A program made the position numbers and the translations under genes. DNA of 64,000 nt. Source: Nitrospirota bacterium (lineage in GTDB: Bacteria; JACPQY01). Below the pieces are notes generated by a model that did no database searches, was not told where the DNA came from, and saw nothing but the letters and a program-made list of their open reading frames with translations. The DNA lies in NCBI GenBank assembly GCA_016180645.1, contig JACPAV010000019.1, positions 118,481-182,480 on the forward strand, given 5' to 3'. Of the stretch, positions 7,314-64,000 are shown one piece after another; the first letter of the stretch is position 1; the number at the start of each line of letters is the position of its first letter.

Positions 7314-7414
7314 GAGCCTCTAACAGAATGCCGACACGTAGGGGAGCATCTTCAGATGCTCCCTCTTGTCGGGAGGGTCTGAAGACCCTCCCCTACGCAT
7401 TCTATTAGAGGCGC
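7314..7414. repeat. MITE-like element with two internal hairpins
   Basis: About 101 bp between the barrel gene and larB. Imperfect terminal inverted repeats of 18 bp (7314-7331 and 7397-7414, two mismatches) enclose two hairpins: GGGAGCATC-TTCA-GATGCTCCC (7342-7363) and GGGAGGGTC-TGAA-GACCCTCCC (7371-7392), flanked by GTAGG and CCTAC. The two tetraloops are complementary. A relative with changed stems sits at 16283-16335, and an identical 20-nt start of another copy is at 63981-64000. Confidence 0.75.
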
Positions 7415-13606: not shown

Positions 13607-13758
13607 GAACATGTAACGAAATGGATATTCAGCCCAAGTCGTTCGCAGGCTTAAGCCTGCGCCTACCTCGGATCCACCTCTTGGGTAGCCGCGGGCCATG
13701 TTCAACGCCGCGCCATCCGTGGCGCGGCGACATATCATGGTCCCATACCCTCCGTGGC
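13607..13758. repeat. Intergenic hairpin cluster between ftsX and envC
   Basis: Three palindromes: CGCAGGC-TTAA-GCCTGCG at 13644-13661 followed by CCTACC; CGCCGCGCC-ATCCGT-GGCGCGGCG at 13706-13729, a 9-bp perfect stem; and CCCATACC-CTCCGT-GGCATGGG from 13742, running into GGGC-TTCA-GCCC at 13762-13773. The 13696-13742 part resembles 4030-4086. The frame of envC is open through this region, but the repeat origin makes it unlikely to be coding. Confidence 0.75.
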
Positions 13759-14934
13759 ATGGGGCTTCAGCCCGCGTCCTCCAGGAATCTCTTGCAGACG
13801 TCATTCAACGCGGGACTATTCATGGCTCTCCTCGCCGTCTCAACGCCTCTCCAAGCCGAGCCGCCATCACGCACTCTTTCGGAACTGCAACGGGTCCAGA
13901 ACGAAATGAAGGAGGTCCAGGACGTCCTCGGCCGAATCAATAGGGACGAAACGCGCATCCTCAAGGAACTGGAGGATATCGATCGGCGCGTCCAGACGAC
14001 CCGCCGCGACCTTACACGCCTTCAGGGCGAATTGCGGCGCCGCACCCGCGAGGTGGCCGGGCTGAAGAAGGACCGGGAGAACCTTCGCAAAGGGCTCAGG
14101 CGAAAGGAAGTCGAGCTCACCCTCCGATTGCGGGCGTTCTACAAGTTTGGTAGGATGAGTTGGATCAAGATGATCCTCAATCCTTCCGATCTGGAGGTGA
14201 TTCCTCGCCAAGTCAAATATATGGTTTCGCTCGCCGAGTACGACTCCAGCCGAATCCGGGGCTATCAGAAGGATCTGACCGTTCTCCGACGCAAGGAAGC
14301 CCGTCTGGAAGAGGCCAAGCAGGTGGTTGTCGTCCGCCTGGGCGAGCTTCAGCAGGAACAGAAGAAGCTCGACGCCGATCGGCGGAAGAAGGTTGCCATT
14401 CGCTCCGAACTCTCCGCCCAGAAGGAACTGAACCAGAAGCTGCTCAGTGAGTTGGAAAAGGCCGCACAAGAACTGCAACACATGTTCGATGTGTTCGACG
14501 CGCAGCCTCGTCGCGACACCGGATGCGACCTGGCCCAGGCCAAGGGCCGGCTCACCTGGCCCGTTCACGGCAGCATCGTCACCGGCTTCGGACCTCGATT
14601 CGATTCGTCCGCCGGTGTAACCCTTCATTCCAACGGCATCGAGATCGCCGCCGCCGCGGGCACCCAGGTTCGCGCCGTCTGCGACGGCCAGGTGATTTTC
14701 GCCGACTGGTTCCGCGGCTACGGACAACTCGTCATTCTTTCCCACGGAGACCACTACTACTCCGTCTATGGGCATGCCTCGGAACTCCTCAAGCAGAAAG
14801 GCGACCTGGTCGTGCAGGGCGAACCTCTGGCCATCACCGGAGAGAGCGGTAGCGCGTCCACGACGGGCGTCTACTTCGAAGTCCGCCACCGGAATTCCGC
14901 CATGGATCCGCTCGATTGGCTCACGGCGCCATGA
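13759..14934 (+). CDS. envC: Septal murein hydrolase activator EnvC-like protein
   Basis: About 391 aa: signal peptide (hydrophobic stretch AGLFMALLAVS, cleavage near PLQA-EPP), long coiled coil (about residues 40-250, rich in Glu, Arg, Lys and Leu) and a C-terminal LytM/M23 domain (about 262-391). The zinc site is degenerate: the HxxxD motif reads HSNGIE, and the usual HLH before FEVR is replaced by VY (GVYFEVRH), as in E. coli EnvC, so it should activate amidases rather than cut itself. Position after ftsEX supports this. The start is uncertain: ATG 13759 lies in a repeat; TTG 13792 with AGGA five nt upstream is an alternative. Confidence 0.85.
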   Translation: MGLQPASSRNLLQTSFNAGLFMALLAVSTPLQAEPPSRTLSELQRVQNEMKEVQDVLGRINRDETRILKELEDIDRRVQTTRRDLTRLQGELRRRTREVAGLKKDRENLRKGLRRKEVELTLRLRAFYKFGRMSWIKMILNPSDLEVIPRQVKYMVSLAEYDSSRIRGYQKDLTVLRRKEARLEEAKQVVVVRLGELQQEQKKLDADRRKKVAIRSELSAQKELNQKLLSELEKAAQELQHMFDVFDAQPRRDTGCDLAQAKGRLTWPVHGSIVTGFGPRFDSSAGVTLHSNGIEIAAAAGTQVRAVCDGQVIFADWFRGYGQLVILSHGDHYYSVYGHASELLKQKGDLVVQGEPLAITGESGSASTTGVYFEVRHRNSAMDPLDWLTAP

Positions 14935-29456: not shown

Positions 29457-31791
<2,335 letters not shown>

Positions 31792-31889
31792 CCCGACACG
31801 ATTCACGTTTATCCCGGTACCGGAACCTGCTCGCCACGGGCACCAACCCCGGCCCGTTCCCGGCGAATTCAGCGCGAGCAACCCCGCGG

Positions 31890-34016
31890 CTACTTGCCGG
31901 GGCGATCAGACCATTCGAGTCCGGCCCAGATGAGGCGGCCGGGAAGTGAGGTCGTATCCACTCTCCCCGGACGCGTGGCGATGTACTGAATTCCGTCATT
32001 GAAGAGATTCTTGGCTCCCACGCGGAGGCTTAGCCGGTCCGCCAGAAAAGCGCGAGCGAGGCTCACGTCGAATGTGCTGTATCCGTCTCCCAGCCCCCGC
32101 TTCGCAATCTGATTGAAGCGAAGGCCCAGCGTCGTCTTCCGGATGGGGGTCAGCCACGCTGCAACATCGTACATCCAGGGCGGAGCGATCTCGCCCTCGC
32201 TTGCGAGCCGGGAGTCCTTCACACCGGCCCAAGCACCGTTCACCGTCGCTTTGAGCCACCACAGGATCTGCTGGCTCCATTCCACCTCGGCGCCCAGGGA
32301 CCGCGCCCAGGCGCTGTTTTCGAATCCGGGAGATGTGGGCGACGGCACTCGGTAGACCATGTCCCGGATGCGGGAGTAGAAACCGGTGGCGCGGCCCACC
32401 ATGTTGGGCCGCCGGAAGACGTACGCCAACTCCCCCGTGCCCACGACTTCGAAATCGAGCGGATCGGCGGGGTTCTGTTCCGCCAACTCGAAGAAGGTCG
32501 GCGCCCGATAGCCCTCGCTGTACTGGCTTTTCAGGATATGATGTTCAGTCAGCCTCCAGACGAGGCTCAAACGGGGAGTGAGCCGCCAGTCCACATCGGA
32601 GAAATGATCGAAGCGGAGGCCGGGGGTCAGCGCCCATCGTTCACCGAGAGTGATGGAATCCTGAACGAAGAGCGATTCGACAAACCGCCTTTCATCTTTG
32701 ACGAGCACGTCCGGCGGGGGCGTGGGAACCTGATTGGCCGCCGGGTCGCCGCCGCTCCCCGGCGGTCCCGCTTCTCCACCCGCCCCGCCCTCGGCCCCCC
32801 CACCTTGCCTCCTCGGCGCGGGCGGCCCGGATCCGCCGGGGCCGGTCTCCGGTCCTCCCGCCGGCTGAGCCGTGGCCCCGCCGGCGGCTCCGGCCGCGGC
32901 CGGCAGCGGCGGCCGGCGGTGGTTCGCTTCCCCAATGAGCGCCGTGGTGTGTTCGAATCCTGCGACGAGGGCGTGTCGGTGGGACGGTTCCCACCGCGCG
33001 TCGATCCCCGCGCGGAGGAGATTTCCGGCGAAATCGTCGCCGCCGCCGGCCATCGTGTTGCGGAGGAATCCTCCGCGGACGTTGACGTGAAAATCGGACG
33101 ACACCTCCCGCGCATAGGACAGTTCAATGGAGCCGTCCGTCTCCGCCACCTCATCGGGAAGCGACTGCCCTTCGCCCCGGGCTTCCGGGGTGATGGCCTC
33201 GCGGAAAAGCTGTCCGGTGAGTGACCCTCCGCGCCAACCGAGCCCGAACACCCCCGTGGCCGCCTGCTCGTCCCCCTTGACGCCGTCCAGGAACGATGCC
33301 GACCGACCGCCGGTGCCCGACACATTGGCAAACATCCTGATCGGCTCCTCACCGCCGGAGGACCACGCCGCCCGCCCCCCGCCCACGGCCCGCCGCTCGG
33401 TCTCCCCGCGAGTGAACAGTCCGAAGTCGTCTTTTTTCGTGACAATGTTGATCAGGCCCATGAAGGCGAAATCGCCATGGACCACCGAGCCCGGCCCTCG
33501 AATGAATTCGATGCGATCGACCTGCTCGATCGGCATGCCCAGAATGAACGGATTGATCCCCGCGCTCTCGCGGCTGAGCGGCACGGAATCCACCAGGATC
33601 TTGATGTTCCCGGCGTTGAACGGAAAATAGAGCCCGCGCACGATCACCGACGGCCGGGCGAGCGAATCCCGCACCGGCTGAACCCCGGGCACCCGCGACA
33701 ACGCCTCCCAAACATTGCGCGCACCCAATCCCTTGAGCTCGCCCGCGTCCAGCACCGTCACCACGCCCGGCACGAAGTCCGCGTTCATGCGGGTTCGTGT
33801 GGCAATCTCCGTCTCCTCTTCGATGAGGCTCAGCAGCTCCTCCATCTCCGGCTGATCTTCGCCCGCGGAGGCGGGGCTTGCCGCCGGGCCCGAATCCATC
33901 TCCCCGCCGTCCATCCTCTCGGCACCCCGGTCCCGCGCCGGCTCTCCGGCGGCATGCGCCTGCTCCACGGCCACCAACAGCATCACAACGATTCCCCATG
34001 CCCATCTTCCGATCAT
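31890..34016 (-). CDS. TonB-dependent outer-membrane receptor
   Basis: 708 aa. Signal peptide ends near QAHA-AGE (residue 23). A plug domain spans about 70-190: PGVVTVLDAGELKGLGARNVWEALSRVPGV-type text with VRGLYFPFNAGNIKILVDSVPL and VDRIEFIRGPGSVVHGD. The 22-strand barrel follows and ends in the family-style ILRAGLEWSDRPGK region, without a terminal aromatic residue. A Pro/Gly/Ala-rich insert (encoded around 32710-32930) lies in one presumed surface loop. It is the last gene of the four-gene module and overlaps the cyclase gene by 4 nt (ATGA). Ligand unknown; the context suggests a signal receptor rather than plain nutrient uptake. Confidence 0.88.
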   Translation of the reverse strand: MIGRWAWGIVVMLLVAVEQAHAAGEPARDRGAERMDGGEMDSGPAASPASAGEDQPEMEELLSLIEEETEIATRTRMNADFVPGVVTVLDAGELKGLGARNVWEALSRVPGVQPVRDSLARPSVIVRGLYFPFNAGNIKILVDSVPLSRESAGINPFILGMPIEQVDRIEFIRGPGSVVHGDFAFMGLINIVTKKDDFGLFTRGETERRAVGGGRAAWSSGGEEPIRMFANVSGTGGRSASFLDGVKGDEQAATGVFGLGWRGGSLTGQLFREAITPEARGEGQSLPDEVAETDGSIELSYAREVSSDFHVNVRGGFLRNTMAGGGDDFAGNLLRAGIDARWEPSHRHALVAGFEHTTALIGEANHRRPPLPAAAGAAGGATAQPAGGPETGPGGSGPPAPRRQGGGAEGGAGGEAGPPGSGGDPAANQVPTPPPDVLVKDERRFVESLFVQDSITLGERWALTPGLRFDHFSDVDWRLTPRLSLVWRLTEHHILKSQYSEGYRAPTFFELAEQNPADPLDFEVVGTGELAYVFRRPNMVGRATGFYSRIRDMVYRVPSPTSPGFENSAWARSLGAEVEWSQQILWWLKATVNGAWAGVKDSRLASEGEIAPPWMYDVAAWLTPIRKTTLGLRFNQIAKRGLGDGYSTFDVSLARAFLADRLSLRVGAKNLFNDGIQYIATRPGRVDTTSLPGRLIWAGLEWSDRPGK

Positions 34017-34981
34017 GCGGCCTCCTTCTGTACGCCCTGCACGATGTTTTCCTTCCGCCTCGTCACTCCATCCATATGAACAAACCGGTTCCGCCCTCCG
34101 GTCTTCGCCTCGTAGAGAAGCCGGTCGGCCGCCTCGAGGGCGGCGAGGGCCGATTCTCCCGACCCGGGCATCAGGGTGACCGCCCCGCCGCTGACCGTCA
34201 CGCGGTCGGCGCACTCGGATGCCGCATGTCGGAGATCGAGCGCCGCGATGGCATCGAGAACGTGGGCCAGGAGGATTCGCGTGGACCTCGCATCCGCCGC
34301 CGGCAGAACGAGGGCGAACTCCTCGCCGCCGTATCGGGCCAGGAGGTCCCCCGGCCGCCGCGCGAAGCCGGCCACGGCCCTGACCACGGATCGCAGGCAC
34401 TCATCGCCGCGGGCATGGCCGTACGTGTCGTTGTATTTCTTGAAGTAGTCCACATCGAGGATGCCCACGGAAAAGACGGAACTCTGGCGAACGGCCCTCG
34501 ACCATTCGGATTGAAGAGCCTCGTCGAAACGCCCGCGATTGGCAACCCCCGTGAGGGGATCGATCGACGCCATCCGCTCCAGAAGGTCCCGCGTCCCCTT
34601 CAGTTCGAGGTGGGTGCGAACGCGGGCGCGGACGACGGAGGGCCGGATGGGTTTGGTGATGTAGTCCACCCCGCCGAGGTCGAAACCCAGGGTTTCATCC
34701 TCATCGCCGTCGATGGCCGTCACGAAGATGACCGGGATGTGCCGGGTCCGATCGTCGGATTTGAGCCGGCGGCACACCTCGAATCCACCGAGATCGGGCA
34801 TCACCACATCGAGCAGGATCAGATCCACGCGATTGGCTGCCGCCAGGCTCATCGCCGTTTCGCCCGACGTGGCGAAATAGAGTTCGTATTCGTGCCCGAG
34901 GGACTCGGCCAGAATCTGGATGTTGGAGGGTTGGTCGTCCACGATGAGGACCCGGCGCCTGGCCAGACAATCGAGGCTCAC
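34013..34981 (-). CDS. Response regulator with diguanylate cyclase output (REC-GGDEF)
   Basis: 322 aa. REC domain (about residues 9-125) with phospho-acceptor D58 in LILLDVVMPDLGG and Lys in TKPI. The GGDEF domain (about 140-305) has an intact active site GGEEF at 218-222, so c-di-GMP synthesis from two GTP is expected, and an RPGD I-site five residues before it for product inhibition. It starts with GTG at 34981 overlapping the hybrid-kinase stop by 4 nt, and its own stop overlaps the TonB receptor start. Phosphotransfer from the HPt domain of the upstream kinase is the likely input. Confidence 0.93.
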   Translation of the reverse strand: MSLDCLARRRVLIVDDQPSNIQILAESLGHEYELYFATSGETAMSLAAANRVDLILLDVVMPDLGGFEVCRRLKSDDRTRHIPVIFVTAIDGDEDETLGFDLGGVDYITKPIRPSVVRARVRTHLELKGTRDLLERMASIDPLTGVANRGRFDEALQSEWSRAVRQSSVFSVGILDVDYFKKYNDTYGHARGDECLRSVVRAVAGFARRPGDLLARYGGEEFALVLPAADARSTRILLAHVLDAIAALDLRHAASECADRVTVSGGAVTLMPGSGESALAALEAADRLLYEAKTGGRNRFVHMDGVTRRKENIVQGVQKEAA

Positions 34982-37900
34982 GTCGCGCCCTCCGGCGTGA
35001 GGCCCAGCTCGCTTATGAGCGCTTCCAGATGGGCGGAGGCGGACTGAAAGTCAAGCCTGTCGATGGCCGCTCCCAGCCGGACCAGACTTTCGCTCGTGGT
35101 CCCTCCGAGCTCCCGCTGAATCTCCGCAAACTGTTCCAAAGCGCCGAGATGGTTTCTCCGGAGATGCTCCTTCATGAGGTCGATCAGGGGAAGGATCCGG
35201 ACGGTTCCGCCGTTCGAGCCGTTGGGACCGGGCGGGCGGGACGGCGCCTCGGGAATCCGCTTGATGACGGCCGCGGACGATTCGACCTCGGCCAGGGCCG
35301 ATTCCAAGCCGTCCAACGAGACCTCCCCCGAGGCGGGGTCTCGCAAGTGCCGTTCCGCTTCGGCGGCGGCCGCCGCCACGCGGTGGGCTCCGAGCGTCGC
35401 CGCCGAGCCTTTGAGCGTGTGCAGGAGGGCCATGGCACCCGCACGATCGCCCGACCCCAGCAGGCCCAGAAGTCGATCCACCGCCTTCCGGTTCTCGAGA
35501 ACGAATTCCGGAATCAGCCGCCGGTAAAGCGAGACGTTACCGCTCACCCTTCGCAAGCCGTCCTCCATTTTGAGGCCGGGGAGCTCCGGTGGGAGCGGCC
35601 CCGTGGAGAGGGGCGCCGGCGTGGACGTCCCGCCCGCGCGCACTTTCAGCCAGCGGGCCATGACTCCCACAAGGTTCTTTTCATCGATCGGTTTTGGGAG
35701 ATAGTCGCTCATCCCCGCCTTGAGGAACCGCTCGCGGTCGCCCATCATCGCGTGGGCCGTAAGGGCGATCACCGGGAGAGCCTCCAGCCGCGGCTGGAGG
35801 CGCATCCGACGCACGGTTTCCAAGCCGTCCATCTCCGGCATTTGAACATCCATCATCACGGCGTCGAACCGTCCTTTTTCGAGAGCGTCCAGCGCCTCGA
35901 AACCGTTGCGCGCCTCGGCCACCTCCAGGCCAAGCCCGCCCAGCATCTCCCGAGCGACTTCACGATTGATGGCATTGTCCTCCACGAGGAGAACCGATTG
36001 GCCGGGTACGAACTGAATCGTGGAAGGGGCGGGCGCCGCCGGCATGGCCTCGTCCGTCGGATGGAGAACTTTCATGATGGCGTCGTGCATGGAGGACGGA
36101 CTGATCGGTTTGTGGAGCACCACCTCGATGCCCGCCTGCCGCGCGAGGCGTTCCGCTTCGTCCCGATCGTAGGCGGTGACCAGGATCACGGGCAGCCGGG
36201 TCGGCGCCGTCAATCGGGCCAATTCGCGCGCGGTCTCGGTTCCGTCCAAGTCCGGCATTCGCCAATCGAGAACCGCCACGCGGAAGGGCGCTCCCTGCTG
36301 GAGGGCGCGTTTCGTCTCTTCCACAGCCTCGGGACCCGACGACACGATGGTGGCCCGGCACAAGAGGGAGCGAAGCATTTCGCCCATGACCGCGCGCGCG
36401 TTCGCATTGTCGTCGGCCACCAGAACGGGCAGGTTCCGGAACTCATCCGCCAGACGGCGGGGACCCACGGGGCCGCGGGGGAGGTCGAACGTCGCCGTGA
36501 AACTGAAGGTGCTCCCCTTCCCCGGCTCGCTCTCGACGTGCATCTCGCCTCCCATCATGGAGACGAGGCGGCGACTGATGGCCAGCCCGAGGCCGAGGCC
36601 GCCGAACCGGCGCGTCATGGACGTATCGGCCTGCGTGAACGGCTCGAACATGGCCTTCAGGAGCTCGGGGGCGATGCCGGGTCCCGTATCGCGGACGGAG
36701 AATTTCAGGATGGCATGATCACGGCGCAGTTCACCGCAATCGACCTTGACCACGATCTCCCCCTGCTCGGTGAACTTCAGGGCATTGCCCATCAGATTGA
36801 GGAGAACCTGTTTGAGCCGCACGGAATCGCCCCGGAGGCGGCGCGGGACGTCGGGGGCGGTGGAAAACAAGATCTCGAGATTCTTGTCTGCCGCCTTCAA
36901 TCCGATGACATCCGCCAACTCGGAAAGCAGGTCGTCGAAATCGAAATCGATCCGCTGGATTTCCAGGCGCGAGGCCTCGATCCGGGACAGGTCGAGGATG
37001 TCTTCGACCAATTCGATCAGCAGGTGGGCCGACGCCTGGGCCTTGGCCAGGTAGCCGCGCACCTTCGGCTGCGCCTCGCCGGCGCGCAGGGCAAGCGACG
37101 TGAAACCGACCACCCCGTTCAACGGCGTGCGGAGCTCGTGGCTCATGTTGGCCAGGAAAAGGCTCTTGGCGCGGTTGGCCGATTCCGCCTCATCCTTCGC
37201 GTGGCGCAGCTCCTCCTGCACGTGGCGCTGCGCGGTGACGTCGCGGGCGATGCCGTCGTATCCCGTCACTCTCTTGAGCTCGTTCCGGAGGGTCACTTCG
37301 GAGAATTCGATGTGATGCGGATGACCCCCTTCGTCGGCAAGGTCGACCTCGAAGGTGCGCTCCGGTGAGGAGGAGCCGTCCGCCGGAGCGACCGGCTTGC
37401 TCAGCAGCTCCCGATGGCGCGCGATGAAGTCATCGGGCGAAAATCCAAGGACACCGCGGACCGACTCGCTCGCGGACGTGAGGCGGCCCTTTTCGTCTTT
37501 GGTGTAGACAAACGTATTGCTCAGGCTGTTGACAAGGCGGTTGTACCGCTTCTCCTGCTGCCACAGTTCGCGTTCGGCCCGTTCCCGCTGTGCGCGCTGC
37601 CGGTCCAGCCGGCGGAAGGAAAGGAGGGAGAGGGTCGAGACCAGGAGGAGCAGCGCCAAGCCGCCTATCGAAACGCCCCACATGCTTCGGCGGACGTCCT
37701 GGGAAAGTCTCCGGTACGGCCGATCGTCAACCTGGACGTACGCCACTCCCAGGAGCTCGCTGCTGCCGGGGTTGTAGAGCGCGACCTCGACTCGAAATCC
37801 CGAGCCGCCGAGCGCCCCTCGGCGCAGGTCCAGGGTGCCCTCCACGGCCTTGACCACCTCATAATCCACCTGGAGTTCGACGCTCAGAAAAAAGGGCGTA

Positions 37901-38193
37901 TCGGTCTTCGAGTCGCGAAGGAGGAGGAGCTCGTCCAGCATCCCCACGAGATTGCGCACGCGCGCCTCGCCCTCGCCGCTGAGAAGCGAGGAGGCGATCG
38001 CGTTCGCCTGGGAGCGGGCGAGGACCTCGGCCTGCATCGCGGCCTCCCGCTTCAGCCTCGGTTGCAGGATCCCCTTCCAGGAAATGAGCATGACCCCGAG
38101 TAGAAGGAGCGCCAGCACGACGAACGCTCCCGAAAGAAGCACGTACGCCCCGCGCTCGTTCGTGGCCCATTCGCGTCCGGCGGGAGAAGTCAT
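34978..38193 (-). CDS. Hybrid sensor histidine kinase with two REC domains and HPt
   Basis: 1071 aa. Two TM helices (about residues 17-38 and 174-194) enclose a periplasmic sensor of about 135 residues; then a PAS-like region (220-320), HisKA with H352 in [11 protein letters not shown], HATPase (about 455-570: NLMGNALKFT, GLGLGLAISRRL), REC1 (about 587-705, acceptor in VAVLDWRMPD), REC2 (about 730-850, acceptor in VMMDVQMPEMDG) and a C-terminal HPt domain with H925 in LLHTLKGSAA. All key residues are present. It is coupled by 4-nt overlaps to the YfiR-like gene upstream and the cyclase downstream, so it probably relays a periplasmic signal to c-di-GMP synthesis. Confidence 0.93.
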   Translation of the reverse strand: MTSPAGREWATNERGAYVLLSGAFVVLALLLLGVMLISWKGILQPRLKREAAMQAEVLARSQANAIASSLLSGEGEARVRNLVGMLDELLLLRDSKTDTPFFLSVELQVDYEVVKAVEGTLDLRRGALGGSGFRVEVALYNPGSSELLGVAYVQVDDRPYRRLSQDVRRSMWGVSIGGLALLLLVSTLSLLSFRRLDRQRAQRERAERELWQQEKRYNRLVNSLSNTFVYTKDEKGRLTSASESVRGVLGFSPDDFIARHRELLSKPVAPADGSSSPERTFEVDLADEGGHPHHIEFSEVTLRNELKRVTGYDGIARDVTAQRHVQEELRHAKDEAESANRAKSLFLANMSHELRTPLNGVVGFTSLALRAGEAQPKVRGYLAKAQASAHLLIELVEDILDLSRIEASRLEIQRIDFDFDDLLSELADVIGLKAADKNLEILFSTAPDVPRRLRGDSVRLKQVLLNLMGNALKFTEQGEIVVKVDCGELRRDHAILKFSVRDTGPGIAPELLKAMFEPFTQADTSMTRRFGGLGLGLAISRRLVSMMGGEMHVESEPGKGSTFSFTATFDLPRGPVGPRRLADEFRNLPVLVADDNANARAVMGEMLRSLLCRATIVSSGPEAVEETKRALQQGAPFRVAVLDWRMPDLDGTETARELARLTAPTRLPVILVTAYDRDEAERLARQAGIEVVLHKPISPSSMHDAIMKVLHPTDEAMPAAPAPSTIQFVPGQSVLLVEDNAINREVAREMLGGLGLEVAEARNGFEALDALEKGRFDAVMMDVQMPEMDGLETVRRMRLQPRLEALPVIALTAHAMMGDRERFLKAGMSDYLPKPIDEKNLVGVMARWLKVRAGGTSTPAPLSTGPLPPELPGLKMEDGLRRVSGNVSLYRRLIPEFVLENRKAVDRLLGLLGSGDRAGAMALLHTLKGSAATLGAHRVAAAAAEAERHLRDPASGEVSLDGLESALAEVESSAAVIKRIPEAPSRPPGPNGSNGGTVRILPLIDLMKEHLRRNHLGALEQFAEIQRELGGTTSESLVRLGAAIDRLDFQSASAHLEALISELGLTPEGAT

Positions 38194-38801
38194 GGATAGG
38201 CCTTCGTGACTTTCATGAAAAACGGCTTGAGCGAGATACGTGAGGCTTCGAGAGTCCGCGTGTTGATGTAGGGCCGGACCTGCGCCTCCACGGACACCCC
38301 GCCGAGCACGCCGCTCTCCACGTCACCCTCGAACGGGGAGTAGACGATGAGGCCGTTCCGGATCCCATATTGGATGACGGACCTCAGCCTTGCGGGATCC
38401 AATGCCTCCGCGATGAAGATCCCCACTGGGGCCCTCCCTTCGTAGGCATTGAACGCGGAATCGGAATGGATTTCCGCCAGGACCGGCAACCCTCGGATCG
38501 CTTCGCCGCCGGATGGGCCGCCAACGTTCAGGCCATCCGCCAACTCGCGCGCCCGGCTCTTTTCACGTTGATAGAAGAAGACGATCAGGAGCCGGCCGTC
38601 GTCCGCAACCTTGTGCTCCAGTCCGACGTCCGCCGCCACAAGCGCCCGAAAGAGCCGTAGGCCGGCGCGAATGCGTGTTTCATCGCTCCCGGCCGCTGCG
38701 CTCCGGCCGAGATCCACCGCGGCCATCAAGCCGAACGCCGCCGCCACGCGGGCCGTGCGACTCAGAATGCCGGAGCTACCGTGCGGAACATGACGCTCCA
38801 C
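38190..38801 (-). CDS. YfiR-like (DUF4154) periplasmic protein
   Basis: 203 aa. N-terminal signal peptide (ARVAAAFGLMAAVDLGRSAAAG). The body matches the YfiR/DUF4154 layout: RIRAGLRLFRALVAAD, GRLLIVFFYQ, GIFIAEALDPARLRSVIQYG, a NGLIVYSPFEG segment, GGVSVEAQVRPYINTRTLEASRISL and PFFMKVTKAYP, the last being the usual LLxLAKxx end. In Pseudomonas YfiR is a periplasmic inhibitor of a membrane cyclase. The GTG start at 38801 has GGGGAGG six nt upstream; the open frame begins at a TTG (38822). First gene of the coupled four-gene module. The family match is by pattern only. Confidence 0.72.
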   Translation of the reverse strand: MERHVPHGSSGILSRTARVAAAFGLMAAVDLGRSAAAGSDETRIRAGLRLFRALVAADVGLEHKVADDGRLLIVFFYQREKSRARELADGLNVGGPSGGEAIRGLPVLAEIHSDSAFNAYEGRAPVGIFIAEALDPARLRSVIQYGIRNGLIVYSPFEGDVESGVLGGVSVEAQVRPYINTRTLEASRISLKPFFMKVTKAYP

Positions 38802-38945
38802 GGACAACCTCCCCAGGTCCAATGGCCACCATTCAACTCGCTTTCTCCGCCTTCATCGCAACGTGCATTATAGACCGCCCCTGTCTACAATCAAAGCCCA
38901 ATTCCGCTTGGCGCTTATGCGCATCCCACAGTCAAATGCCGGGGA

Positions 38946-39029
38946 TACGACGAACTGCCCGAGCCGGCCTTCTACATGGTGGGTTCCATCGAGGAGACGG
39001 AGCAGAAGGCCAAGCAGTTGATGCAGTAA
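38946..39029 (+). pseudogene. atpD: Relic copy of the atpD 3' end
   Basis: 84 bp that align without gaps to the last 28 codons of atpD (31708-31791), stop included, in the same orientation 7238 bp further on. There are six differences, all transitions; five are silent (one of them TAG to TAA) and one changes Ala to Thr. Similarity stops abruptly at both ends. The fragment has no start and is not translated from any visible ORF. The 291-bp gap it sits in (38802-39092) has nothing else recognisable. Confidence 0.9.
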
Positions 39030-39092
39030 GAGCCGGCTCTATTGAGGCCGAAGCTCGATAGCGGCTATCGTGTTTCGGCCTCGAATCATCCG

Positions 39093-39590
39093 TCAGAAAT
39101 AGTACCGGGCGCCGAGCCCACCCTGGAGATCGAACGACGTCTCGGGGACAAGCCTCATGCCGGGCACGATCTCGAGGAAAACGTCCACCGGCGCCCGGTG
39201 GAACAGATAGGTAAGCCCGATGGGCACCCGCACGCCGGCCTCGATGTCCTCCTCTCGAACACTGAGCCGTCCGCCTGCTCCTGCATAGACCGGAAACATC
39301 CCCATCGCCTCCGCCCCCGGTCCCGCTTCACGCCGCTTCCGACGATCCAAGAGATCGGCGACGGTCCACAGATAGTCCGCCTGAACCTGGAAAAACTCCC
39401 GTCGAAGTGAGTAGGCCGCTCCCCCCTGAATCGCCTGGTTGGAGTGGATCCAGTATTTCGCGCTTATTCCGGTGGGCTCCCCCACCATGATCCCCAGTCC
39501 TGCGGGCCTGGAATCGACGTCAAACGCCCACGATCCCCGGCAGCCTGCCCAGGTAAGAACAAGCGCCATGCTCACCAAGATAGTCTTCAT
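39093..39590 (-). CDS. Small outer-membrane beta-barrel protein
   Basis: 165 aa. Signal peptide MKTILVSMALVLTWAGC followed by RGSWA-FD; a lipoprotein reading of WAGC is possible. The mature part begins LGIMVGEPTGISAKYWIHSNQAIQG, a pattern seen in DUF3996/BAPKO_0422-type small barrels, and ends QGGLGARYYF with the terminal Phe expected for outer-membrane insertion. GGAG stands 7 nt before the ATG. Monocistronic as far as can be seen, downstream of the NarL-type regulator operon in the same direction. Function unknown. Confidence 0.7.
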   Translation of the reverse strand: MKTILVSMALVLTWAGCRGSWAFDVDSRPAGLGIMVGEPTGISAKYWIHSNQAIQGGAAYSLRREFFQVQADYLWTVADLLDRRKRREAGPGAEAMGMFPVYAGAGGRLSVREEDIEAGVRVPIGLTYLFHRAPVDVFLEIVPGMRLVPETSFDLQGGLGARYYF

Positions 39591-39604
39591 CCTCTTGCTC
39601 CGGC

Positions 39605-39772
39605 TTCCCGAGGCTAAACCCCGTGCCATGGAGGGTACGGGGCTCAGCCTCTAACTCATCCCACCCCGGCACGAGCCATTTTCCCAGCTTTTCGTTTTTA
39701 GACGCAGCGTCCATTCGCTCACCCTACTCTCGGCGCAGGGGCCCGCCAATGGGCATCCCACCCCAAATGGGG
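39605..39772. repeat. Hairpin repeats upstream of the small barrel gene
   Basis: CCCCGTGCC-ATGGAG-GGTACGGGG at 39619-39642 is nested inside GAGGCT/CAGCCTC arms and matches the hairpin at 24006-24029. A second small palindrome CCCC-AAAT-GGGG lies near 39760. The 203-bp gap has no gene; the promoter of the barrel gene should lie here but no clear one is seen. Confidence 0.6.
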
Positions 39773-44273: not shown

Positions 44274-47200
44274 TTATCGATCCAGCGACACGCGCAGGAG
44301 CGACAGGAGCTGGTCCGGGTCCACCGGCTTGGCGATGTAGTCGGACGCCCCCGCCTCGATACATTTCTCACGGTCTCCTTTCATGGCCTTCGCGGTCAGC
44401 GCGAGGATCGGCAGGCTCTTGAATTGCCTGTCCTTCCGGATCTCGCGCATCGTTTCGTACCCGTCCATTTCGGGCATCATGATGTCCATCAGCACCACGT
44501 CCACATCCGGGGTGTCCTTCAACAGCCGGATGCCCTCGCGGCCGTCCCCGGCGTGGAGCACGTTCATCTTCTGCGTCTCAAGGATGCTCGTGACGGCGTA
44601 GATGTTCCGGATGTCGTCGTCCACCACGAGCACCTTCTTTCCCTGGAGAACCCGGTCCACCTGCTGCACCTGGCGGATCATCTGGCGCTTGGACAGCGGA
44701 AGATCCGCCATGCGCTGGTGCAGGTAGAGTGCGGTTTCGGCCAGGAGCCGTTCGGGCGACTCCGCATCCTTCACGATGATGGATTGCGCGAAGCGGCGCA
44801 GTTTCCGCTCTTCCTTCGGGCTCAGGTCCTTCCCGGTGTAGACGATCACGGGAATGTGCCGGAGGCCGGCCTCCTTTTCCGCTTTCTCAAGGAATTCGAT
44901 GCCGCTCAGGCCGGGAAGCCGCAGATCCAGAATGGCGCAGTCGATGGCCCCCGATGAGAGCGCGGGGAGCGCCTCTTCGGCCGAGGCGACGGCCACGACG
45001 TCCACGTTCGGATCGCTCAGGAGCTCCGTCAGACTCTGCCGCTCCGTCGCATTGTCCTCGATGACCAGGACGCGTTTTTTGCGCTTCTCAACCGAGCCCC
45101 GGATTTGATCGAAGACCGCTGCCAGGGCCGATCGGTTGGGCACTTTCTCCATGCATCCGGCGGCCCCCAGCCGGTAACCCCGGTCCCGATCCTCGGTGGC
45201 GGTGATGATGTACACCGGGATGTGGCGCGTTTCCGCATCGTGCTTGAGCCGGTCCAGAATGGACCACCCGTCCATGTCCGGCAACCGGATGTCCAAGGTC
45301 ACGGCGTCCGGCTTGAAGCGCCTCGCCAGGGCCATCCCTTCCTCCCCTCGCTCCGCCACCACGCCCTTGAAGCCTTTTTCATGGGCCAGGTCCCAAAGGA
45401 TGTGACCGAAGCTGGGGTCGTCGTCCACGATCAGCACCAGGCGATCGCCAGGCTCCACCAACTCCCGGTCATCGACCAGCTCCCGCCTCGCAAACGAAGC
45501 GATTTGGATTTCCGAAACGTCCGCGCCTCGCTCCTGCACGGACGCGGCCGCTTCCGCCGCGCGGATTTCGGCTGCCACGCCAATCGTTTTAGGGAAGCGG
45601 GCCGGGAGGTAGAGCGTGAACACGCTCCCCGCTCCCGGTGTGCTGACCACCCCGATTTCGCCGCACAGGAGCCGGCTGAGTTCGCGGCTGATCGAGAGGC
45701 CCAGACCCGTTCCGCCGTATTTCCGGCTCGTGCCCCCCTCGGCCTGTTGGAACGCTTCGAAGATGATTTTCTGCTTGTCCAGCGGGATACCGATGCCCGT
45801 GTCGATCACCGAGAACGCCAGCACGCTTTCCGCGCCCGTGAGGAAGGACTGGTCACCCGTCCATCCCTCGCGCGCCGCATCGATGCGCAGGAGAACCTTG
45901 CCGCGCGCCGTGAATTTGAACGCGTTGGACAGGAGGTTCTTCAGAACCTGCTGGAGCCGCTTCGCGTCCGTCTGGACGAACTTCGGAAGCGATTCGCCCA
46001 GCTCGATGGAAAACTCCAGGGATTTCTGGACGGCGACCTGCCGGAAACCGCGTTCGACGTAGTCCTTGAGATCGTCGAAGTAGACGTCCGCCACGTCCAC
46101 CGTCATCTTGCCTGCCTCGATCTTGGAGAGGTCCAATATGTCGTTGATGAGGTTCAGGAGGTCCGTGCCCGAACCGTGGATGGTGCGGGAGAACTCCACC
46201 TGTTTGTCCGTGAGGTTCCGGTCCGAATTCTCCGAAAGCATCTTGGCGAGAATGAGGAGGCTGTTGAGGGGTGTCCGGAGTTCATGGGACATGTTGGCCA
46301 GGAATTCCGATTTGTACTTGGAAGTGAGGGAAAGTTGTTCCGCCTTTTCTTCGAGGGCTTTTCGGGCCAGCTCCACCTCGCGGTTTTTCCGTTCCACTTC
46401 CGTCTTCTGTTCCGCGAGTTGATGGGCCTTTTCGGCCAGTTCTTCGTTGGTCTTCTTGAGTTCGAGCTGTTGTCCCTGAAGCTCCTGCGCCAACGCCTGG
46501 GATTTCTGGAGCAGCTCCTCCGTGCGCATGGTGGCCGCGATGGTGTTGATCATGATCCCGATGCTTTCCGCGAGCTGATCGATGAAGGTGAGGTGGATTT
46601 CGCTGAAGGGGTCGAACGAGGCCAGTTCAATGACCGCCCGGGTTTCGCCCTCGAACAGGATGGGGAGAACCACGACGCTGCGGGGTTGCGCCTTGCCCAA
46701 GGCGGAGGCGATCTGCACGAACCCCGCCGGCACGTTGGCCAGCAGAATGCGCTTTTTCTCCAGGGCGCACTGTCCGATGAGTCCCTCGCCCAGTTGGAAA
46801 CGTTCCAGCGAGCCGGACTCCGGACGGTGCGCGTAGCTGGCCAGGGGACTGAGGTATGAACCGTTGTCCGTTCGCGCGTGGATGTAGAACACCCCCTGCT
46901 GCGCGTTCAGGAGCGCGGCCAACTCCGACATGATGAGCCGGGAGACCGTGACGAGGTCGCGTTGGCCCTGGATCATGGCGGCGAACCGCGCGAGGTTGGT
47001 CTTGAGCCAATCCTGCTGCGTGTTCTTCTCCGTCGTCTCCTTGAGGTTCCGGATCATTTCGTTGATGTTGTTCTTCAGCGCCTCCACCTCGCCGCGGGTT
47101 TCGACGGCGATCGAGCGGGTCAGATCGCCCTTCGTCACGGCGGTGGCCACGTCGCCGATGGCGCGCACCTGAGTGGTCAGGTTGGCGGCCAGTTGGTTCA

Positions 47201-49517
47201 CGTTTTCCGTGAGATCTTTCCAGATGCCCGCGGCGCCGGGAACGCGGGCCTGACCGCCGAGCCGGCCCTCCACGCCCACTTCGCGCGCCACGGTGGTCAC
47301 CTGGTCGGCGAAGATCGCGAGCGTGTCGATCATTTCGTTGATCGTGTCGGCCAGCGAGGCGATTTCTCCTTTGACTTCGAAGGCCACCTTCTTCTTGAGG
47401 TCGCCCGTGGCCACGGCGGTCACGACTTTCGCGATGCCGCGCACCTGGTCCGTGAGGTTCGCCGCCATCTGGTTCACGTTGTCCGTGAGGTCTTTCCACG
47501 TGCCGGACACACCCTTCACATCGGCCTGACCGCCGAGTTTTCCTTCCGTACCGACATCGCGGGCCACGCGTGTGACTTCCGAAGCGAAGGCGCTGAGCTG
47601 GTCCACCATCGTATTGATCGTGTTCTTGAGGGTGAGGATTTCGCCTTTGACGTCGACCGTGATTTTACGGGAGAGATCGCCTTTGGCCACGGCGGTGGTC
47701 ACTTCGGCGATGTTTCGCACCTGGCCGGTGAGGTTGGCCGCCATACGGTTCACGTTGTCCGTGAGGTCTTTCCACGTGCCGGACACGCCTTTCACGTCGG
47801 CCTGGCCACCCAGCTTTCCTTCCGTGCCCACCTCGCGGGCCACGCGGGTCACTTCCGAAGCGAACGCGCCGAGCTGGTCCACCATGGTATTGATGGTGCT
47901 CTTGAGGGCGAGAATTTCCCCCTTCACGTCCACCGTGATCTTGCGGGAGAGGTCGCCTTTGGCCACGGCCACGGTGACTTCGGCGATGTTTCGAACTTGG
48001 CCCGTGAGGTTCGCGGCCATGCGGTTCACGTTGTCCGTGAGATCTTTCCAGGTGCCGGACACGCCCTTCACCCGCGCCTGTCCGCCGAGCTTCCCTTCCG
48101 TGCCCACCTCACGGGCGACACGGGTCACTTCCGAGGCGAACCCGCTGAGCTGGTCCACCATGACGTTGATCGTGTTCTTGAGGGCAAGAATTTCGCCCTT
48201 TACGTCCACCGTGATCTTCCGGGAGAGGTCGCCTTTCGCCACGGCGGTCGTCACTTCGGCGATGTTTCGAACTTGTCCCGTGAGGTTTGCCGCCATGCGG
48301 TTCACGTTGTCCGTGAGGTCCTTCCACGTGCCGGACACGCCCTTCACACGCGCCTGCCCGCCGAGTTTCCCTTCCGTGCCCACTTCGCGGGCTACACGCG
48401 TAACTTCGGAAGCGAACGCGCCGAGCTGGTCCACCATGACGTTGATCGTGTTCTTGAGGGCGAGAATTTCTCCCTTCACGTCCACCGTGATCTTGCGGGA
48501 GAGGTCGCCCTTCGCCACGGCGGTCGTCACCTCGGCGATGTTTCGGACTTGTCCCGTGAGGTTCGCCGCCATGCGGTTCACGTTGTCGGTCAAGTCCTTC
48601 CACGTGCCGGATACGCCTTTCACGTCCGCTTGTCCGCCGAGTTTTCCTTCGGTGCCCACCTCGCGGGCCACACGCGTGACTTCCGAAGCGAACGCGCCGA
48701 GCTGGTCCACCATCGTGTTGATGGTGTTCTTGAGGGCGAGAATTTCCCCCTTCACGTCCACCGTGATCTTGCGGGAGAGGTCGCCCTTGGCCACGGCGGT
48801 CGTCACTTCGGCGATGTTTCGAACTTGTCCCGTCAGGTTCGCCGCCATGCGGTTCACGTTGTCCGTGAGGTCCTTCCACGTGCCGGACACGCCTCTCACG
48901 TCGGCCTGTCCGCCCAGTTTTCCTTCCGTGCCCACTTCGCGGGCCACGCGGGACACTTCCGATGCGAACGCGCTGAGCTGCTGCACCATCGTATTGATCG
49001 TGGTGGCGGCGCGAAGGTATTCGCCTTTCAGCGGACGATCCTCGATTTTGACTTTCATGGTTTGCGAGAGGTCGCCCTGCGCCACGGCGCCGATGACGCG
49101 GATGACTTCGGCCGTGGGCTGAATGAGGTCGCCGATGATGGCGTTCAGCGAGTCGACGCTGTCCTGCCAGGATCCTTTGGCTTCCGGAAGAGCCGCGCGC
49201 TGGGTCAGTTTTCCTTCGCGGCCTACGACCCTACGGATTCGTTCGAACTCGCGGGCCATCCCGGCGTTCAATCCGATCACGCCGTTCAGCAGGGAGGCCA
49301 GCTCCCCACCGGTGCCGTTCCCGTGCACCCTCATCCGCGCTTTGAAGTTTCCTTTGCTCAATTCGCGCACGACGCGGAGCACTTCCTTAATCAAGACTTC
49401 GGGCTTATCCGTTTCCGCGCGACCGGGTGAGGGGGGCTTGACCGACCAGGCGACGTGATGAGGGACCTCCCCGGTCACCAATCGGTCCTCAGGAACCCCT
49501 TCTTCTCTGTCTTTCAT
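44274..49517 (-). CDS. Soluble poly-HAMP hybrid histidine kinase with GAF and three REC domains
   Basis: 1747 aa, no TM segment. Residues about 45-820 are HAMP-type modules: two diverged N-terminal ones, then seven 92-residue units each with [16 protein letters not shown] and [11 protein letters not shown], the first five nearly identical. A GAF domain (about 839-995) and coiled coil precede HisKA with H1078 in [11 protein letters not shown], HATPase (about 1190-1310: [24 protein letters not shown]), then REC1 (about 1358-1470), REC2 (1482-1600) and REC3 (1628-1745), all with their Asp. Architecture recalls fungal group III (Nik1) osmosensing kinases. GGGGAGG is 4 nt before the ATG at 49517. 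It probably heads the cluster's phosphorelay. Confidence 0.94.
47100..49030 (-). repeat. Tandem 276-bp coding repeat (HAMP modules)
   Basis: Seven in-frame units of 276 bp (92 codons); the same landmark (ccgtgag..tctttcca) recurs at 47209, 47485, 47761, 48037, 48313, 48589 and 48865, exactly 276 bp apart. Units at 47761-48865 are highly similar at the DNA level including silent sites; 47209 and 47485 are more diverged. Recombination between units should be able to change copy number. Confidence 0.93.
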
Positions 49518-49551
49518 GATACCTCCCCTTTGTACGCTGACTACCGGGACC

Positions 49552-50163
49552 TTAAGGCGGAGCCGGCAATGACACGCCGGCCGATCGTGTTCCAACCTCC
49601 ACGTGCGTGTATTGAAGAATTATGGACACCAAATGATCGGCATCCACGGGTTTCTTGACGAACGTGGTGGCCCCGGCCGCCATGACCTTGTCCTGAAGAC
49701 CTTTGCCTTCGTATCCCGTGATGGCGATGACCACGGTATCCTTGAGTTCGGACCTGGAGCGGATTTGTTCACAGACTTCGATCCCGTCCATCCCCGGCAT
49801 CAGGATGTCCAGAATGACGACATCCGGCCTCAGTTGCGCAATCTTGTAAACTCCCTCGAACCCGCTCGATGCGGTTTCCACAAGCAGCTTACGCGCGGTC
49901 AATCGGCGTCTCAGGTTCTTCGTCATTTCTTCGTCGTCATCGACCACCAACACCGTCGGTCGATGAAGATCCAACCCTTCGGGTGCTTCCATCTTGTGGG
50001 CGTCGAGAAACGATCGAAGGTCGGCCGGCCGGACCCGCCGGTGCCCACCGACGGTGCGAAAGGCGATCAGATGGCCGCCATCGATCCAGTCGGCCACCGT
50101 CGAGGGATACACATGAAAGAGATCCGCGATTTCCGACGTGCTGTAGAACTTTTTCTCCTTCAT
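49552..50163 (-). CDS. HTH (MerR/excisionase-like)-REC regulator
   Basis: 203 aa. The N-terminal DNA-binding domain (about residues 5-55: [38 protein letters not shown]) is a MerR/HTH_17 type winged helix; the REC domain (about 70-185) has [14 protein letters not shown], acceptor in [13 protein letters not shown] and Lys in FVKKPVD. This order, HTH before REC, is the reverse of most response regulators. Start ATG 50163; a GTG at 50190 is in frame. It is the first gene of the run that continues with the poly-HAMP kinase 34 nt later, so it may control this operon. Confidence 0.88.
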
Positions 50164-50229: not shown

Positions 50230-53200
50230 TCAAGCTTCCGAGGATTGATCGCCCCGGGGCCGGTGCTTGCCGACGCCCCGCTCGGTGGCATCCGGCCATT
50301 CGCGGGACGGCTTTGCCTTCCTGGCGCCGCCCCGCTCGGTGGCATCCGGCCATTCGCGGGACGGCTTTGCCTTCCTGGCGCCGCCCCGCTCGGTGGCATC
50401 CGGCCATTCGCGGGACGGCTTTGCCCTCCTGGCGCCGCCCCCCTTGAGCCTCCACTTCTTGACCCATCCGGACAGAAGCGAGCGGTTCACGCCCAAGTCC
50501 ACTGCCGCCAGGGAGATGTTCCCTCCCGTCCGCAGGAGAGCGTCTCGGATCGACCGCACCTGCACCTCCTCCAGAACGTCCTTCAATTTATAGGCGCCCG
50601 ATCCCTTCTTCACGGGGCTTCCTCCCACGAGATCCAGCTTGTGACGGAAATCCTGAACCTCCAACCGGGCGGTGGCGCACACGACATAGGCATTCCGCAA
50701 TGTATTCTCCAGTTCGCGCACGTTTCCCGGCCAGCGGTAAGCCGAGAGAAGCGCAAGCGCATCGCCCGCGATCGATTTCGGCGCCCCACCCTCCTCCCGG
50801 GCGATTTCCTTTAGAAAGGCATCGACCAGAAGCGGGATGTCCCCTCCGCGTTCCCGGAGCGGCGGGACCGGCACATGGAAAACACACAATCGGTAGTACA
50901 AATCCTCCCGGAACTGCCCGCGCTCGATCAATTCCCGGAGGTCCTTGTTCGTGGCGGCGACGATTCGGACATCCAGTTGGATTTCGCCCGTCCCTCCCAC
51001 GGGCCGGACGGCCCGTTCCTCCAGCGCCCGGAGCAGCTTCACTTGAAGGCCCAGGGGCATCTCCCCGATTTCATCCAGAAAGAGCGTGCCCCCGTGTGCC
51101 ACCTCGAATAGGCCGGGCTTGTTGCGATCGGCTCCCGTGAACGCTCCTTTGACGTGACCGAACAATTCAGACTCGAAAAGATCATACGGCACAGCCGCGC
51201 AGTTCAGCGGCACAAACGGCTTGTCCTTGCGCGCGGAGTTGAAGTGGATCGCCCGCGCGAGCAGCTCCTTGCCCGTGCCGCTCTCGCCCTCGATGAGAAC
51301 CGGCACACGGCTGTCGACCGCCCGGTCGAGGAGACTCAAGACACGGCGGATGGCCGGACTCGTTCCGACGATTCGATCGTACCGGTACTTCGGCTGCTCA
51401 TCCTGAATGAGCACACTCAGGCGCTCGCGGGCGCCGTCCAACTCCTTTTCCTGCTGGGTGACTTTTTCCCGCAATTTCCCGTTGGCCTCCTCGAGATCCG
51501 CGGCCAACTCCTCGATCCGGCCCTTCGACTCGTTCAATTCGCGAACGGTTTTCCTCAGCTCACGCTGGTCTCGAATGTTCTGCGCGATGAGTTGGGCCTT
51601 GTAGATCGCAAGCGCAGTCAGCTCGCTGAGGCCGGAAAGGAGGGGACCATCCTCCTCCATGAAATGGCCCTGATCGAGCTGGGTATCGAGGTACAACGCC
51701 CCGATGGGCTTCCCCTTCATCAGGAAAAGCGGGATGCCCAGGACCGACCGGATGCCCAGTTGCGTGACGCTGGCGGACCGGTTGAAGCGGGGGTCCGCCG
51801 TTGCGTCGATCACAAAGAGGGGTTGACCCTGGGCGAGAGTTTCTTGAGCCACCGACAAGCTGAAACTTTCCTCCGGATCCCGGATTTCCCGGCGTTCCCG
51901 CGATCGAGCCACACGTACTTTGAGCTGTCCCTCCTCCAGAAGAAGGAGGAAGCCACGCTCCGCCTTGTTGAAGGCAACAAGAGAATCGACAATCTCCACC
52001 AGCGTTTCCTGGAAGTCGATGGGGGAGTTGATCTTCCGCAGGAGATCGAGGAGCGAGAGCGTTTCGGCATCCGTGCGACGGCGCCGCGGTGGGCCAAGGG
52101 TCGGAGCCGGACCGGCTGAAATGCCCTTTCGGGGTGCATCCACTCCGGAGGCGGCGAGGGTGGGCTCATCCTGATTGGAAGCAGCCGCCATCCTCCCATC
52201 CCCCCCTTTCTGAAATGGGGGCAGCGCCGGGATTTGTCCCTCCTTGCGGTGGGTGAGGACCTGCGACCGGAGCGAGTGAAACCGGACCTCCAATTCCCGA
52301 CTCCCCTGGCGCATCACGGCCTCCTCGTATTCGCCGAGCGCCGTTTCCACCCCTCCGACTTCACCGACCCTCAGACGGATCTCCAAATTCACCAGTTTGG
52401 CTTCAAGCACGTTGGGCTCCATCCCCAATCCTTCGAAGAGCGCCTGCGAGCCCTCGCTCTCATCCTTCGCTTCCTGGAGACGCCCCCGCGTGAGGAAACA
52501 CACCGCCCTCTCGAGGCGCACCCGGGCCTGGAGATGCGTCATCCCGTGGAGGGACGACAGCTTCAAGGCTTCCGAAAAGCTTTCCTCCGCGCCCTCCAGA
52601 TTGCCCGACGACATGCGGAGAAGGCCGAGATTGAACAGGGCCCTCGCGCGATCCGCTTCAGCGCCGATCTGGCGGAAGACCACCAATGCTTTTTCGTAGT
52701 GGGTTTCGGAGGCCGGGGCGTTCCCGCTTTTCTGGTAGGACACGCCCAGATTGAGGTTCGCGAGGGCCGTGCCACGCAGGTCTCCGATCTCCTGACTGAG
52801 CGTGGCGCACGAATGGAGCGATTCGATGGCCTCCGGCGTGGCGTCTTTCGCCAGGTAGGCCGCACCGAGCGCATTCAGGGAGAGAGCGTATCGCGCCATG
52901 CGTCCTGAACGCCGCCCTTCCGCGCAGTTTTGCTTGAACAGCTCGATCGCCCGGTCCGTTTCCTTCTGATAGAAGTGAACTTTTGCCAGGACGTGTCGGA
53001 ACGCCATCAATTCGTCAGGGTCGCAGAGCCGTTTCCCCTCCAAATAGGCGCGGCTGATCGCCGCCGCCTCACCGTAGCGGGCCTGCTCCAGGACAACATC
53101 GGCGTAGAGCGAATCGAGCCGCGGGAGCATCCTTTCGCCTTCGGGCGAGCGCTCCTTGAATTCGCGGATGGTTCGAGCCGCCTCCTCCAGCTTCCCGCCG

Positions 53201-63771: not shown

Positions 63772-64000
63772 GCTCCCCTAACTCCCAAGCGGACGCCATC
63801 TCCCTGTCCCAACGGGCTCGCCACAAAGGCACCGCCTGTTCTCCTTCCTTCTACTCACCAAGAGACGGCCGCCTCTTAGCTCGACTTTTGCCATTTTTCC
63901 ATTCCGGTCTCGTTTCAAAATTCATCGCTCAGAATCTCGCTCGGATGGGAAGGCATCTTCAGACACCGCTCAAGCGATTCGTAGGGGAGCATCTTCAGAT
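63772..64000. repeat. Terminal non-coding stretch with the start of a hairpin repeat
   Basis: No gene is seen. The last 20 nt (63981-64000) are identical to 7338-7357, the first arm of the GTAGGGGAGCATC-TTCA hairpin, and the copy is cut by the window edge. Confidence 0.7.

Follow-up and report, generated by a model that had tools for sequence, protein, structure and literature searches.

When e14 or phage 21 enters icd, the 3' end of the gene is replaced by a similar end and the old end comes to lie on the far side of the insert; the process requires an integrase as well as a fixed target. Insertion with long target duplication, with long direct repeats around the inserted restriction-modification genes, is described for Helicobacter pylori (Nobusato et al. 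2000, as cited in the accessible parts of PMC1643837, PMC4978471 and PMC3154945). According to the accessible text of a third study, an E. coli conjugation assay in which homology-facilitated illegitimate recombination was sought, re-ligated linear DNA with one gene end entered by a single crossover, giving Lac+ cells at 4.2e-6; among 60 rarer Lac- clones, 56 had part of the gene end duplicated (109-950 bp in the 14 clones that were sequenced) and four were of the illegitimate type (PMC3240628). The duplications were put down to partial degradation, re-circularisation and a single crossover, and all 56 clones were without lacZ function, the gene being whole only in the Lac+ class (PMC3240628).

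Here we describe a duplicated gene end at the atp operon of a Nitrospirota bacterium, in a stretch of 64,000 nt, hereafter called the window. The complete atpD (30412..31791, plus strand), coding for 459 aa, is the last gene of this operon. A repeat search of the window found its 3' end again downstream, in direct orientation (31708-31790 and 38946-39028, 94% identity, start-to-start spacing 7238), and in both copies the next base completes a stop codon, TAG in atpD and TAA in the copy. The original prediction, namely that the last 28 codons of atpD recur 7238 bp downstream in direct orientation, is correct to the base. The copy (38946..39029, plus strand), which we call a relic, is a 5'-truncated second atpD 3' end with 93% identity over 84 nt to the end of the complete gene (31708..31791, plus strand); its frame is open to the TAA, and the similarity ends at the stop codon. 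Reading of the sequence also bore out the claim of six differences, all of them transitions and five silent (stop codon counted), the sixth being non-synonymous: GCT/GCC, GGC/GGT, GAA/GAG, GCG/ACG (Ala/Thr), AAA/AAG and TAG/TAA. A search of the organism's own genome with a 261-nt query over the copy region gave two matches at E <= 1, atpD and the copy itself (E 3.6e-30 for the copy). The left edge of the relic is an abrupt non-homologous joint, and neither the DNA 5' of the relic nor the DNA downstream of the two ends has a similar counterpart. The intervening DNA is thus set between direct copies of a resident gene segment, with one copy of the gene complete, as in additive homologous integration; a long direct repeat around an insert is likewise the layout of insertion with long target duplication.

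The longest exact run common to the two ends is 23 nt, which is short for misleading an assembler at usual word lengths, and a false join made by the assembler at this repeat is therefore unlikely. As the genome is a draft in 65 contigs, an assembly artefact or the leftover of an old tandem atpD duplication has to be considered, but we think this extremely improbable: besides the short exact match, the DNA following the two copies is dissimilar, short 3' ends were found at eight genes with none inverted (see below), and a similar layout is present in another genome. A mis-assembly at atpD would be unlikely given so short a match and the presence of the layout at further genes and in another genome, although this is an argument rather than proof.

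The insert bracketed by the two ends (31792..38945) is 7154 nt long, has a G+C content of 66% versus 62% in its surroundings, and contains four genes on the minus strand. Domain searches identified a TonB-dependent receptor with plug and barrel (31890..34028, minus strand), a response regulator with receiver and GGDEF domains (34013..34981, minus strand), and a hybrid histidine kinase with HisKA, HATPase, two receivers and Hpt (34978..38193, minus strand). Of the YfiR-kinase-GGDEF-TonB module that had been claimed for this insert, the last three members are thereby supported; the fourth gene, a small ORF (38190..38822, minus strand), has no Pfam family even at E 5 and no significant match in a PDB sequence search, so its putative identity as "YfiR" is a matter of position and resemblance only. 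Its sole other match among 145 genomes (own genome included) is weak, at 31%, and lies beside a TonB receptor in genome G064; in the same-family genome G001 (84% complete), neither the small ORF nor the TonB receptor of the insert found a match. A promoter-like site pointing to the small ORF (38867..38894, minus strand; 10 of 12) is a consensus match only, one being found where 0.6 would be expected by chance. Elsewhere in the window, 276-nt tandem repeats (47122-49002; 82-88% alike) lie within a 1773-aa sensor kinase ORF (44274-49595), and a 54-nt tandem repeat, 98-99% alike, is found at 50274-50441.

A strong stem-loop of 43 nt (39042..39084, plus strand) is predicted by folding directly past the stop codon of the relic, where the original atp operon may have ended. 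For the 67-nt stretch 39029-39095 the folding energy is -33.5 kcal/mol (z -4.9), with 0/200 shuffles as good, while the same test 3' of the complete atpD gave z +0.55 and hence no strong hairpin. Since the hairpin follows the relic and not the complete gene, the operon probably ended originally at the relic, and the complete atpD would now carry the end of a donor. The next gene past the relic (39093..39629, minus strand; 178 aa, no confident family) is presumed to be the former neighbour of atpD. As a general mark of the old operon end the hairpin had to be given up, being absent or reversed at the other loci tested: among nine loci (atpD, the seven other host genes introduced below, with hsdS taken at its last relic, and an inositol monophosphatase gene of G001) it is clear only at atpD, and at the thioesterase locus a strong hairpin lies 3' of the complete gene instead.

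G001 is the only same-family genome that we found. In G001, atpD is followed convergently by a truncated copy of an inositol monophosphatase gene; the complete gene and this truncated, internally deleted copy (94% over 213 nt) bracket an RND efflux pump region beside atpD (L033 10368-17017). Displacement of atpC by the insert was ruled out (loci L036; L141; L139; L140), as atpC lies away from atpD in both family genomes, in a common cluster whose other members are, by resemblance, presumably ruvC, ruvA, tatA and tatC; in the genomes G021 and G045, atpC directly follows atpD. No donor was found: a search with 8000 scored candidates of 5.8 billion clustered proteins gave as the next atpD after the organism's own that of G001, with 83% over the last 60 residues. 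An empty site was not found in these comparisons: at eno, G001 (84% complete) has no enolase match, and the gene on the far side of the eno relic has only weak matches there.

Gene-end relics were searched for over 1.98 of the 4.72 Mb of the own genome (42%), with 1325 crude gene calls, using blastn and tblastn within 30 kb and considering only copies outside called genes. Sequences that recur on two or more other contigs were dropped before the count, among them inverted and upstream ones. Repeats of this dispersed kind, about 60-130 nt long, occur in the window at 7314-7400, 13684-13778 and 63923-64000; they are present on several contigs and at contig ends, where breaks in the assembly may be due to them. 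A palindrome, GGTGACAGTATACT...AGTATACTGTCACC, that may be a small mobile hairpin element recurs just after position 118218 of G000:C3 and at G000:C2:277593-277652 and 282037-282096 (G000 being the own genome and C its contigs).

After filtering, 20 local copies were left, 12 of which (in 10/1325 genes) belong to the class that was sought, i.e. direct, downstream and derived from the 3' end. The other eight comprise three direct upstream 5' copies, the mirror class (one being the start of hsdM in the restriction locus described below), three direct upstream 3' copies, one direct downstream 5' copy and one internal copy, with no inverted copy at all; two of the three upstream 3' copies are nearly full-length at about 46% and were taken for uncalled neighbouring genes. 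Once the count was complete, two cases were taken off the strict list: C10 17209 (a short ORF with a 45% amino-acid match) and C6 112486 (63% over 287 nt, perhaps a paralogue). The strict list thus has ten relics of eight genes, encoding AtpD, enolase, a 4HBT thioesterase, a LarA-like protein, two proteins without a Pfam family, HsdS (three relics) and HsdR. Called genes lie between the host gene and the relic at six of the eight host genes; at the remaining two, C6 90535 and C7 115931, there are none, and these relics bracket little or nothing. Longer truncated copies inside called genes were seen once in this family, in the second genome, and twice in control loci.

As a first control we used 80 loci of up to about 21 kb with 1134 crude genes, for which the gene calls are poor, having been trained on small samples, and obtained two direct downstream 3' matches: L090, within a spurious ORF with a palindromic repeat, and L095, a 68-nt copy 98 nt past an atpG-like gene. 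Two contiguous controls, 700 kb each of pSymB and of the C. metallidurans megaplasmid (981 crude genes, no dispersed-repeat filter), gave a single match of 46% identity that is nearly full-length and looks like a gene missed by the caller, and 50 kb of MG1655 with 41 genes gave none of this class. Counts of 10 and 8 of 1325 correspond to Fisher P values of 0.007 and 0.025 against 2/1723, and of 0.030 and 0.088 against 1/981; with the second genome added (10/1566), the latter comparison gives 0.060. An enrichment of gene-end relics in this lineage over the control replicons is therefore no more than suggestive.

Enolase and its 3' relic bracket defence genes of the Dnd phosphorothioation type, namely DndC, DndD and a DndE/HerA-like protein (G000:C2:319618-331875; L191, L192); a putative cysteine desulfurase gene, also between eno and the relic, may be DndA-like, judging by the start of its sequence. 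Downstream of the thioesterase gene, a PIN-domain protein (toxin) and a DUF5647 protein are encoded. A type I restriction locus (G000:C7:165000-183300; L258) carries serial cargo with 3' relics of hsdS or hsdR behind it, in the order hsdR, Fic, hsdR relic, hsdS, PDC-M30A-like, relic, DUF1828/1829, relic, HEC-01A-like ATPase, relic, SoFic and hsdM. The three hsdS relics have 82-87% identity to hsdS and only 77-82% among themselves, which speaks for their having come from separate donors. A 66-nt copy of the hsdM start adjoins the second hsdS relic, so that this site has a more complex history. Bracketing by gene ends at atpD is thus one of a series and is not tied to a signalling module.

How the relics diverged bears on their origin. 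The pN/pS ratio is 0.06 for the atpD pair, a value that comes from only six changes, 0.00-0.38 for the ten strict pairs, and 0.32 when all 14 examined pairs, weak ones included, are pooled. For the ten strict pairs the count of premature stops in aligned codons was zero, and length changes are confined to two of the strict relics (1 and 4 nt). Six of the ten (atpD, eno, C4, C6 90535, C7 115931 and hsdR) have kept a stop at the homologous place, and in four of these six it is of another type (TAG/TAA, TAA/TGA, TGA/TAA and TAG/TAA). On either side of the repeat, 40 nt ahead of the relic and 40 nt past the stop, identity is at background (0.07-0.38; 11 pairs). Had the copies been identical at first and one of them decayed, the relic branch should approach a pN/pS of 1 and lose its stops; the low ratios, and stops that are kept or swapped for other stops, argue that most of the divergence likely predates the event. 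Two functional gene ends of different lineages have therefore likely been joined at one locus, the differences between them being mostly older than the joining. It had been proposed that the second atpD copy once evolved under selection as a real atpD, and this is probably so, given its pN/pS of 0.06, a stop type that changed yet still is a stop, and the same trend in the ten well-supported relics.

These observations also weigh on the idea that an insertion process of another kind copied about 0.1 kb of its target, the copies being identical at the outset and diverging later. The geometry is that of the H. pylori restriction-modification genes (in the accessible parts of PMC1643837 and PMC4978471), and part of the cargo here consists of defence genes. 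Moreover, the two usable pairs of the second genome, at 94% identity, have pN/pS values of 0.57 and 0.96, the outcome to be expected had the copies started out alike at insertion and decayed thereafter. In the own genome, however, most of the divergence is silent and four stops were exchanged for other stops, a pattern not predicted by neutral decay of a single copy, and in the ten strict pairs the similarity stops at the stop codon and in none runs on into intergenic DNA. We regard duplication of the target as unlikely.

The reading we prefer for atpD, with a probability of roughly 0.55, is that the relic was left when DNA of a related lineage, comprising its own atpD end and the four genes, was added by homologous recombination within atpD. 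The donor fragment would first have been trimmed and re-circularised by ligation of its ends; a single crossover within the ~0.1 kb of gene end still left would then insert this circle, leaving atpD whole, the cargo next to it and a short gene end at the far side, in front of the old operon terminator. Insertions of this kind would keep the gene complete and under its own promoter, which may be why the relics are mostly 3' ends, and repeated rounds would build serial arrays such as hsdS-cargo-relic-cargo-relic-cargo-relic. The similar relics at other genes are likely scars of relatives' DNA added in the same way, by ordinary homologous recombination and without a dedicated mobile-element enzyme.

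The main rival, which we consider possible but less than likely, is homology-facilitated illegitimate recombination: a linear donor would pair within atpD on its left side and be joined by chance on its right within the last 84 nt of the resident atpD, thereby duplicating that end. A single crossover gives the same map as one homologous plus one illegitimate junction, and the two are indistinguishable here. An illegitimate junction has been proposed, in the accessible text on Vibrio, to account for effector modules that are displaced serially and leave an effector 3' end behind (PMC5361080), and the own genome has one competence gene of the ComEC type. On the other hand, recipient DNA of about the size of the insert is generally deleted in such events, as stated in the accessible part of PMC3240628, and the mechanism requires a chance joint in the last ~160 nt of the gene at eight genes, for hsdS repeatedly. 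In the strict pairs the gene tail from relic start to stop measures 75-160 nt, in genes of 0.5-2.8 kb; with a breakpoint uniform over gene length, a tail of <=160 nt at all eight genes has a probability of 9.6e-8, a figure that leaves aside later erosion, by which long relics could have been shortened as well.

A decayed integrative element is a further candidate: a tyrosine or serine integrase would have targeted the 3' end of atpD and supplied a replacement end, with later loss of the integrase gene. This layout, a gene end exchanged for one that differs mainly at silent sites, is known from e14 and phage 21 in icd, and the own genome has 16 matches to the tyrosine recombinase family PF00589, one pair of them on C6 about 9 kb from a gene with a relic. 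Yet no integrase is found among the four genes of the insert, as had already been remarked, and none of the 16 matches lies on C19, the contig of atpD, or on C2, C3, C4 or C7, the five contigs carrying seven of the eight host genes. The host genes also differ, so that several integrases would have to have been lost; with the genome-wide search covering tyrosine recombinases, a decayed element of this kind is very unlikely. The original prediction had offered two options, an element that inserts at the end of a gene and brings a replacement end, or recombination between strain variants; the second, in the form of recombination between lineages, fits better, while an element with its own enzyme agrees poorly with an insert without integrase and with eight different host genes. 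What all cases have in common is homology to the host gene itself.

The homologous addition that we favour could be taken one step further. Cargo plus ~0.1 kb of a housekeeping 3' end might behave as a cassette free of any recombinase, which circularises via its two gene ends and re-enters any genome that has the gene. We think this rather unlikely; if true, the ends of essential genes would serve universally as sites at which genes for defence and signalling dock and serial arrays grow. The arrival of such genes without integrase or transposase is hard to reconstruct, and a truncated gene end left downstream would be a legible trace that names the anchor gene and the order of events, with silent changes hinting at a diverged donor. 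Anchors such as atpD and eno are common to all relatives, so the same search is usable on many genomes to measure the amount of cargo that comes in by this route, and the serial hsdS array suggests repeat events at one gene.

A limited search of open-access text found no description of gene-3'-end relics as a genome-wide series. The following comparisons hold as far as the accessible parts of the cited papers go. The atpD locus and its counterparts resemble the single-crossover products of the E. coli lacZ assay (PMC3240628) in having an insert bordered by a duplicated part of a gene end (109-950 bp in the sequenced clones there), with no dedicated recombinase; that assay used an engineered substrate and lacZ function was lost in the sequenced duplications, whereas here the donors look diverged, the genes are complete and the events serial. 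With insertion by long target duplication they have in common accessory genes, often of restriction-modification, between long direct repeats; they differ in that the repeat ends at the stop of the upstream gene, the copies look diverged before the event, and the atpD cargo is not a defence system. In Vibrio effector displacement (PMC5361080), too, a new module is placed beside a conserved upstream anchor, and the old 3' end and its neighbours are pushed downstream, serially; here, in contrast, the upstream gene is intact, and the cargo at atpD and eno has no relation to it. Finally, unlike with e14 and phage 21 in icd, neither an integrase nor a fixed target is seen.
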